A DNA stretch of 34,199 nucleotides from Halococcus hamelinensis 100A6. Lineage in GTDB: Archaea > Halobacteriota > Halobacteria > Halobacteriales > Halococcaceae. The notes under the pieces are model-generated. The model was not told the origin of the DNA. It saw only the letters and a list, made by a program, of their open reading frames with translations, and did no database searches. The position numbers and the translations under genes are program-made. The DNA is taken from contig NZ_AOMB01000043.1 of NCBI RefSeq assembly GCF_000336675.1, positions 1 through 34,199 on the forward strand. The letters are read 5' to 3'. Shown piece after piece: positions 13,680 through 34,199 of the stretch (the stretch's first letter is position 1; each line of letters opens with the position of its first letter).

Positions 13680-14046
13680 CGGCGGTCGCGGTGCGGGTGC
13701 GACCGTGGCGGTCGCGGTTTGGGGTGTGGTTTGCGGTTCCTGGTGTCTCGGCGAACGAATGTGAGCCGAGGCTCAGGAGCGCTGTGCTCTCCTGGTGGAT
13801 GAAGGGCGAGGCGCGCGAACGAGCGCCGAAGGCGCGAGTGAGTAGCGACTGAAAGGAGCGCGCGGCGAGGGCTTCGGCGGTACGGTGCAGTGCCGTGCGG
13901 TTGCGGAGGTGTCAGTGATTGTACCGCGAACGAACGAAGTGAGTGAGCGGGCGCAAGCGCGACCAACGGGAGCGCGCAGCGCTTTTGATCCACATTTTGC
14001 CAGGGAGTGAGGCGCGACGCGCCGAACGACCGCAGCAAAAGGTGGG
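13680..14046 (-). repeat. Intergenic repeat element A (read on the minus strand)
   Basis: This fills the 424-base gap 13626-14049 and contains no convincing gene. Read on the minus strand it starts one box after the HAH_0734 stop codon with CCCACCTTTTGCTG (14033-14046). It then has a GGCGC-GAC-GCGCC hairpin (14011-14023), a 24-base box identical to element B (13981-14004), the box at 13914-13933 shared with element D, and a 25-base box identical to element B (13784-13808) that enters a hairpin. It ends with an 18-base box (13733-13750) nearly identical to one in B. No transposase or target duplication was found. Confidence 0.75.
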
Positions 14047-16136: not shown

Positions 16137-16886
16137 ATGGACGAATTCGATATCGAGACGCTCGCGGAGCCGGAGCTGTCCGACCCCGTGCTCGTCGAGG
16201 GGCTCCCCGGCGTGGGCCACGTCGGCAAGCTCGTCGCCGAGCACCTCCTCGAAGAGCTCGACGGCGAACCGGTTCGTCGCGTCTACTCCGAGCACTTCCC
16301 GCCGCAGGTCGACATCGACGAGGGCCGCGCGAAGCTCGCCTCGGCCGAACTCCACGCCGTCGAGGCCGACGGCCGGGACCTGCTGGTGCTCACCGGCGAC
16401 CACCAGGCCCAGGACGCGGCCGGTCACTACCGACTCACCGACCGATTCCTCGACATCGCCGCGGAGTTCGACGTCGAGCGGGTGTTCGCGCTCGGCGGCG
16501 TCCCGACCGGCGAACTCATCGACGAGTACGACGTCATCGGCGCGGCGACGGGCGACGAGTCCATCGAGGAGCTCGAAGCCGCGGGCGTCGAGTTCCGCGA
16601 GGGCGAACCCGCCGGCGGCATCGTCGGCGTCAGTGGCCTGCTCCTCGGCCTCGCCGAACGCCGCGACCTCCCCGCGGCCTGCCTGATGGGCGAAACCAGC
16701 GGCTACCTCGTCGACCCCAAGAGCGCCCGCGCGGTGCTCGAGATCCTCGAGGACATCGTCGGCTTCGAGGTCGACTTCGACTCCCTCGAAGAGCGCGCCG
16801 ACGAGATGGAGGAAGTGGTGCAGAAGATCCAGCAGATGGAGGGCGGCCAGGCCGCCACCGACGACGACCTCCGGTATATCGGGTAG
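16137..16886 (+). CDS. PAC2-family protein (proteasome assembly chaperone-like)
   Basis: 249 residues, starting three bases after nop10. The PAC2 fold is shown by DPVLVEGLPGVGHVGKLVAE (17-36), the core strand DLLVLTGDHQAQD, VFALGGVPTG, and the glycine motif GGIVGVSGLLLGLAE. A C-terminal coiled segment (about 215-245: DSLEERADEMEEVVQKIQQM) is typical of the archaeal members. Relatives include eukaryotic PAC2 chaperones of the 20S proteasome; the archaeal role is less certain. Repeat element B starts immediately after the stop codon. Confidence 0.9.
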   Translation: MDEFDIETLAEPELSDPVLVEGLPGVGHVGKLVAEHLLEELDGEPVRRVYSEHFPPQVDIDEGRAKLASAELHAVEADGRDLLVLTGDHQAQDAAGHYRLTDRFLDIAAEFDVERVFALGGVPTGELIDEYDVIGAATGDESIEELEAAGVEFREGEPAGGIVGVSGLLLGLAERRDLPAACLMGETSGYLVDPKSARAVLEILEDIVGFEVDFDSLEERADEMEEVVQKIQQMEGGQAATDDDLRYIG

Positions 16887-16907
16887 ATCCCACCTTTTGC
16901 TGTCGTT

Positions 16908-17014
16908 CGGAAGGCGCAGAGCGCCTTCCGTGAGCATGGCAAGACCGGAGGTCTTGCTGCAACCGGAAACGGCGAAGCCGTTTCCGAGGATGACGAGACG
17001 GCTTCGCCGTCTCG
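16908..17014. repeat. Array of four perfect triloop hairpins in element B
   Basis: Stem CGGAAGGCGC with loop AGA (16908-16930, 10 pairs); GCAAGACC with loop GGA (16939-16957, 8 pairs); CGGAAACGGC with loop GAA (16964-16986, 10 pairs); CGAGACGGC with loop TTC (16994-17014, 9 pairs). All are perfect and separated by 6-8 bases. The stems differ in sequence, so these are not copies of one unit, yet the geometry is constant. Confidence 0.85.
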
Positions 17015-17025
17015 AACCACGGTCG

Positions 17026-17290
17026 CTCGCTTCGCTCACGGGTCACTCCGTTCGCCGTTCGCATCCGAGGTTCTCCCTTCGGTCGAACCTCGCGCCGCTC
17101 GCCCCTGGCAAAATGTGGATCAAAAGCCTGCGTCACCTCCTTCGGAGGTTCCTTGGCCCGCTCGCTCCTTTCAGTCGCTCGCGGTAGGGTCACTAGCCCC
17201 TACCGAGCCACTACCGCACCCGCACAGCACCGCCACCGCCGAAGCCCTCGCTTCGCTCACGGCTCACTCCGTTCGCCGTTCGTATCGAGG
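17026..17290 (+). repeat. Internal direct repeat of element B (two copies, about 45 bases)
   Basis: Copy 1 is 17026-17070, copy 2 is 17247-17290. Both begin CTCGCTTCGCTCACGG and end in ATC(C)GAGG; they differ at two positions and one single-base gap. The spacing start to start is 221 bases. Confidence 0.8.
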
Positions 17291-17334
17291 CGCTCGCGTT
17301 GCTCGCGCCTCGCTTCGCTCGCCCTTCATCCACC

Positions 17335-17353
17335 AGGAGAGCACGGCTCTCCT
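17335..17353. repeat. Box-4 hairpin of element B
   Basis: AGGAGAGC, loop ACG, GCTCTCCT: eight perfect pairs, preceded by TCATCCACC and followed by GAGCCT. Element C has a different stem at the equivalent place, with the same flanks. Confidence 0.8.
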
Positions 17354-17482
17354 GAGCCTCGACTCGCGTTCACTCGTCGAGACATCAGGTACCGCTGCCG
17401 TCATCGCACCGCAACCGCACGGCGGCCGCACCGCAGCCGCCGCGACACAATCCTGAATACGACGGGTGGGATCGGTCGTGTC

Positions 17483-25735: not shown

Positions 25736-26065
25736 CCCACTTTTTTCGACGGGGGAATCGCGCTCGCTTCGCTCGCGCTCAACCCCCGCCCAAAAACCTG
25801 GACTGAAAAGGGCTGCTCGCTCCCTCCGGTCGCTCGCAGTACAATCGCTAACCAGCTACCGCCTCCACCCCCAACCACTCCGCAGCCGCCACACGCCTCC
25901 CCAGCCGATTCGCTCCGTTCGTTCCACTCACTCCGCTCATCCACCGGCAGAGCTTCGCTCTGCCGAGCCTGCACTCGCTACGCTCGCGCAGACCTCGCAC
26001 AGTGTCCGCGGTCGGTGTTCGTGTTCACTCACACACGACCGCGAGCGCGCGCCACAGCATCCGCC
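25736..26065 (+). repeat. Intergenic repeat element C
   Basis: This fills most of the gap 25697-26092 with no credible gene. Boxes in order: CCACTTTTTTC (25737-25747, identical to D), CAAAAACCTGGACT (25791-25804, identical to D and analogous to the 24-base A/B box), GTACAATCGCT (25839-25849), a 21-base box (25888-25908, identical to D), TCATCCAC (25937-25944) with a nine-pair hairpin (25945-25965), then 22- and 21-base boxes at 25993-26014 and 26034-26054, both identical to D. It is inverted relative to element D. No transposase or flanking duplication seen. Confidence 0.75.
25945..25965. repeat. Box-4 hairpin of element C
   Basis: CGGCAGAGC, loop TTC, GCTCTGCCG: nine perfect pairs between TCATCCAC and GAGCCT. 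It replaces the AGGAGAGC-ACG-GCTCTCCT stem of element B at the same position. Confidence 0.85.
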
Positions 26066-34131: not shown

Positions 34132-34177
34132 GCGGAGCGAAGCTCCGCGAGGTCCAAAAGAGTCGGAGACTCTTTTG
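34132..34177. repeat. Two triloop hairpins at the right edge
   Basis: GCGGAGC-GAA-GCTCCGC (34132-34148, seven pairs) and CAAAAGAGTC-GGA-GACTCTTTTG (34155-34177, ten pairs). A further GAGAGC-TTT-GCT is cut by the window end. Geometry matches the hairpins of elements A-D, so a fifth element probably starts here, after the gene stop at 34057. The T-run of the second stem could also act as a terminator. Confidence 0.6.
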
Positions 34178-34199
34178 ACGATCACGAGAGAGCTTTGCT

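Follow-up and report, generated by a model that had tools for sequence, protein, structure and literature searches.

A hairpin array of Halococcus hamelinensis as a probable non-autonomous mobile element with a second element in its linker

The four successive hairpins found in the intergenic region separating a PAC2-family gene from a GNAT acetyltransferase gene of Halococcus hamelinensis 100A6 most probably represent a small non-coding, non-autonomous mobile element, here called DHE-1, into the linker of which a second element, DHE-2, has been inserted. The window, i.e. the whole stretch of DNA analysed, comprises positions 1 to 34,199 of contig NZ_AOMB01000043.1. A sequence-only reading of it had described four perfect hairpins with three-base loops that did not arise by tandem duplication. 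All four stems proved exact, and the array resolves into two discrete inserted units. The conserved parts, however, had been overlooked, which are the flanks and linkers rather than the stems. The features of the region are as follows, in window coordinates.

16137-16886, plus strand: PAC2-family gene (proteasome-assembly-chaperone-like), directly upstream of the array (Pfam PF09754, E 4.5e-60)
16889-16902, plus strand: host block A, CCCACCTTTTGCTG, directly left of the insertion; many copies recur right after gene ends
16903-17019, plus strand: whole inserted unit of 117 bp, DHE-1 with nested DHE-2; paralogous empty sites CTTTTGCTG^CGGTCGCTCGC in the same genome
16908-16930, plus strand: DHE-1 hairpin 1, 10-bp stem CGGAAGGCGC, loop AGA; stem also in loci L235 and L242
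16934-16990, plus strand: DHE-2, inner unit of 57 bp, inserted in the DHE-1 linker at TGA^TGA; copies in other genera
16939-16957, plus strand: DHE-2 hairpin 1, 8-bp stem GCAAGACC, loop GGA
16964-16986, plus strand: DHE-2 hairpin 2, 10-bp stem CGGAAACGGC, loop GAA
16994-17014, plus strand: DHE-1 hairpin 2, 9-bp stem CGAGACGGC, loop TTC; stem also in L235 and L242
17105-17126, plus strand: host block B, CTGGCAAAATGTGGATCAAAAG, with a core occurring 51 times in the genome
17320-17338, plus strand: host block D, CGCCCTTCATCCACCAGGA, forming the right part of the intergenic repeat around the array
34132-34199, minus strand: second nested DHE-1, with an inner unit other than DHE-2; incomplete at the window end, continuing in contig C43

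The four hairpins are separated by spacers of 8, 6 and 7 bases. In the local stretch of 144 bases four triloop stems of at least 8 bp were observed, where 0.005 were expected from 3000 dinucleotide shuffles (maximum 1). Folded as single-stranded DNA, the 117-bp unit reaches −46.5 kcal/mol compared with −21.9 ± 3.1 in shuffles (z −8), and the predicted fold of positions 16903-17019 consists of the four hairpins plus three extra pairs. RNA folding is likewise strong. The sequence-only reading had staked its view on triloop inverted repeats being more frequent between genes than in composition-matched random sequence, and this was borne out. In 65 kb of intergenic DNA within 429 kb sampled from this genome, with genes called by a purpose-made simple codon-usage script and borders therefore approximate, we counted 21 triloop stems of at least 8 bp with 1.5 expected (maximum 4 across 60 shuffles) and 15 of at least 9 bp with 0.45 expected. 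Stems with loops of 4-8 bases were in no clear excess over shuffles in this 65 kb, and the enrichment of triloops was lower inside genes than between them. Further triloop hairpins stand elsewhere in the window, as had been noted before: at 17334-17354, 25945-25965 and 34132-34177.

DHE-1 has the layout TCGTT-hairpin-TGATGA-hairpin-AACCA and alone measures about 60 bp, and DHE-2 of the window reads GCATG-hairpin-TGCAAC-hairpin-AGGA. Excising positions 16934-16990 restores a normal DHE-1, TCGTT-CGGAAGGCGC hairpin-TGATGA-CGAGACGGC hairpin-AACCA, both stems of which are identical to those of L235 and L242 in the closest relative. In other DHE-1 copies, including the one at the right edge of the window, an inner unit differing from DHE-2 is nested at the same linker. 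The right-edge copy (34132-34199) runs on into locus L201. Its inner two-hairpin unit has the stems CAAAAGAGTC and GCGGAGC and repeats elsewhere in the same genome.

At other loci, pairs of triloop hairpins have the linkers in common and differ in their stems. A covariance model (R1) for DHE-1, built from three such loci, gave matches in 10 of 10 Halococcus genomes and in 126 of the 146 genomes of the order Halobacteriales; its match counts include both strands of one place, so that copy numbers are overstated. This genome contains the exact DHE-1 skeleton 13 times. Of 392 genomes sampled from the phylum, 45 matched a pattern of fixed flanks, linker and outermost stem bases; every one of them belongs to the order, and the reversed control gave 0 matches. 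DHE-1 is also present on plasmids of many haloarchaeal genera, while phage records contained no match and viral contigs no exact match to the pattern.

In the parsed copies TCGTT, TGATGA and AACCA are constant and both stems are variable, and the complementarity of the ends TCGTTCG and CGAACCA is near-complete but limited to 7 bases. Among 54 distinct copies of equal length, a set with a selection bias because it was picked by a model built on similar copies, 13 of the 19 stem pairs are variable, with changes that almost always affect both partners, and the 1026 pair cells include 3 G-T and 3 mismatched pairs. The pattern used on the 392 genomes served as a less biased test, since it leaves free the loops and the stems except for their outermost bases; it yielded 115 distinct matches with 230 hairpins. 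Perfect pairing down to a short loop was found in 195 of these, compared with a mean of 69 (maximum 80) when the 3′ arms were re-dealt. Three-base loops close 164 of the 230 hairpins (58 GNA, 73 TNC). The stability of DNA hairpins with GNA triloops is well established. The emphasis that had been placed on such loops is borne out by the family, as 131 of the 164 triloops read as GNA from one of the two strands, which is consistent with a DNA-hairpin role.

A matching empty counterpart was found for 22 of 81 DHE-1 sites, always with the ends TCGTT...AACCA and with no target duplication, and shifting these ends by one or two bases left 0 empty-site matches. In both families the unit is precisely what distinguishes a filled site from an empty one. 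The preferred insertion site of DHE-1 is CGNNG^CG. Most of the empty sites are paralogous and situated in other repeats; for some of them recombination between repeats, rather than transposition, could be the cause. No recent movement was observed. The DHE units are probably non-autonomous mobile DNA hairpins. Insertion into hairpins was considered as a general rule for DHE-1 and found to be weak, with 9 of 79 sites lying in a palindrome of at least 7 bp compared with a mean of 4.3 (maximum 9) for shuffled partners. One DHE-1 on a Salinirubellus plasmid (L330, positions 580-680) lies in a palindrome at the 3′ end of an annotated transposase gene, the final codons and stop codon of which belong to the element.

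The DHE-2 consensus is GCATG-hairpin-TGCAnC-hairpin-AGGA. Eight other sampled genera contain additional copies; one match, in genome G136, forms no hairpins and is probably due to chance. In three genomes (G080, G105 and G124) DHE-2 is inserted at CAGGG^CGGG, about 123-125 bases upstream of a Y1 transposase gene, and its ends there are the same as at TGA^TGA in the window. Locus L326 is an exact empty site matching the flanks of other DHE-2 copies. At L333, L339, L340, L341 and L342, DHE-2 is located near haloarchaeal IS200/IS605-type transposase genes, seemingly in their palindromic ends, and L333 has further variable double-hairpin arrays close by.

The array sits in a larger intergenic repeat that is dispersed, combines constant blocks with variable palindromes and often follows directly on gene or tRNA ends. 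This composite repeat, with blocks A, B, C and D and variable palindromes between them, spans window positions 16889-17470 and 13700-14040. The block-B core, with 51 copies here, has 49 in the closest relative (G006), is rare in other Halococcus genomes and does not occur in any other genus sampled from the family Halococcaceae. Directly at block D, at 17334-17354, stands the triloop hairpin CAGGAGAGC-ACG-GCTCTCCTG, and other copies have similar hairpins with different loops at the same place. Short tandem duplications of block B split by a single N (L138, L152 and L161) are probably joins of the draft assembly. The PAC2 protein is 86-87% identical to those of H. thailandensis and H. morrhuae, and when contig C43 was compared collinearly with G006, clear synteny extended over only about 16 kb.

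The units could alternatively have spread by exchange of cassettes, through recombination between repeated intergenic blocks and with no transposase involved. Several DHE-1 copies do lie in the same repeated blocks and in P-type palindromes, and stems recur in both hairpin positions. We nevertheless consider this explanation unlikely, given DHE-1 at unrelated sites such as the transposase gene 3′ end, DHE-2 in the DHE-1 linker and near transposase genes, and unit ends that are exact to the base. The hairpins might also be structured RNA, that is 3′-UTR or terminator hairpins held by selection at gene ends. This would agree with the beginning of the array 16 bases past the PAC2 stop codon, with the strong RNA folding and with the distribution of DHE-1 between genes, where 3 divergent regions (under-representation) compare with 16 convergent ones (over-representation), although the divergent deficit is equally expected if selection purges insertions from promoters. 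The orientation to genes is even (in tandem gene pairs 7 copies run in the same and 8 in the opposite direction), the window contains 0 Rfam matches, and in the closest relative the orthologous PAC2 gene end is without these hairpins (the local palindrome is different there as well); all three points argue against an RNA role, which we judge to be very unlikely.

The loops bear on this question too. One and the same stem is found with both loops of a reverse-complement pair (GAA/TTC, GGA/TCC, AAA/TTT and AGA/TCT), which is unexpected for a strand-specific RNA loop. Loops in both orientations are better explained by a strand-blind process at the DNA level than by a strand-specific RNA function. 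At the orthologous loci L187 and L196, the flanks of which are 95% and 88% identical, the element differs only in its loop (GGA vs TCT), a change that requires three substitutions, or a single one if the loop was also reversed. Inversion of loops between inverted repeats is also known in chloroplast DNA. Template switching during replication, which the sequence-only reading had thought a plausible origin, would have produced each hairpin separately and in place at quasi-palindromes. The perfect arms, the coupled changes in them, the very few G-T intermediates and the reversed loops do fit copying from arm to arm. As an origin, however, it is largely refuted and highly improbable, because flanks and linkers fixed across the order, fixed unit ends and the exact empty sites of both families point to a common inherited unit. 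Template switching may serve to maintain the arms after insertion.

If the units are mobile elements, as we prefer, they would appear to move via single-stranded hairpin DNA with the help of a trans-acting transposase. This enzyme would recognize the two-hairpin shape together with the constant flanks in single-stranded DNA, and the unit would be pasted into exposed DNA, e.g. other palindromes. After insertion, copying of one arm from the other would keep the arms identical and turn the loops. Extended to the whole order, such a scheme describes a mobile family whose identity lies in the constant linkers and the shape of two hairpins with GNA loops, its stems being exchanged and its loops inverted through movement and repair as folded single-stranded DNA; we regard this wider reading as possible rather than likely. 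Y1 enzymes of the IS200/IS605 type use hairpins and make no target duplication, and for this reason they are the natural suspects as mobilizers. A Y1 transposase was undetected in three Halococcus genomes and four neighbours (G001, G004, G008 and G010-G013), in which DHE-1 copies are many. We sought a tie between DHE-1 and the Y1 transposases of its host genomes but found none, several genomes in which no Y1 was detected being rich in copies. The sole Y1 gene of this genome adjoins a TnpB-like gene, the arrangement of an ordinary IS605 element.

Among open-licence papers we found no description of the DHE family in haloarchaea. The SMR-A elements of Haloquadratum walsbyi (HqIRS42, HqIRS43 and HqIRS55) are tiny, transposase-free and dispersed, with prominent terminal inverted repeats and no target duplication; they are about 110 bp long, commonly with >95% identity within a type, strongly prefer the near-terminal palindromes of IS605-type elements and PATEs, and have an unknown mobilizer (PMC3119063). 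The DHE units probably work like SMR-A and are perhaps related to them, a likeness drawn from the published description. The DHE array is too short for a transposase gene (117 bp), and the 22 empty sites of DHE-1 are without duplication. Several DHE-2 copies lie just upstream of Y1 transposase genes and one DHE-1 in a transposase-end palindrome, but only 9 of 79 DHE-1 sites are in a palindrome of at least 7 bp. A single DHE, in contrast to SMR-A, has about 55-60 bp (a nested pair about 107-117 bp) and interchangeable stems, and DHE-1 is order-wide. PATEs, which include terminal-only IS605 remnants, have near-terminal palindromes and no target duplication and can be as short as 52 bp (PMC3119063). 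DHE-1 shares the palindromes near both ends and the missing duplication, but PATEs are without inverted ends and related to IS605 termini, whereas DHE-1 has the near-inverted ends TCGTTCG/CGAACCA. MITEs have ends related to a resident transposon. They often, though not always, cause target-site duplication (PMC3119063), and none was seen at the 22 DHE-1 empty sites.

REPINs are non-autonomous doublets of hairpin-forming units between genes, with RAYT transposases and a proposed single-stranded intermediate (PMC3116915). A DHE is likewise a doublet of hairpins between genes. The REP sequence is conserved within each class and a RAYT gene is present, whereas DHE stems vary and the linkers are conserved. 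RAYT was not found: this genome has no Y1 gene other than the one beside the TnpB-like gene, and none was detected in G001, G004 and G008. The double-hairpin elements of Allomyces, which reportedly have variable stems, are mitochondrial, unlike DHE, and are likened here by description only. In these elements two hairpins form one putatively mobile intergenic unit (Paquin et al. 2000, via PMC7218506).

The analysis turns an intergenic curiosity into a family with defined ends that is traceable across haloarchaea and that accounts for part of the palindrome-rich intergenic DNA in these genomes. It bears on what mobilizes the small mobile repeats of Haloquadratum, and it offers a natural system for the movement of hairpin DNA and for the upkeep of perfect palindromes during sequence drift.
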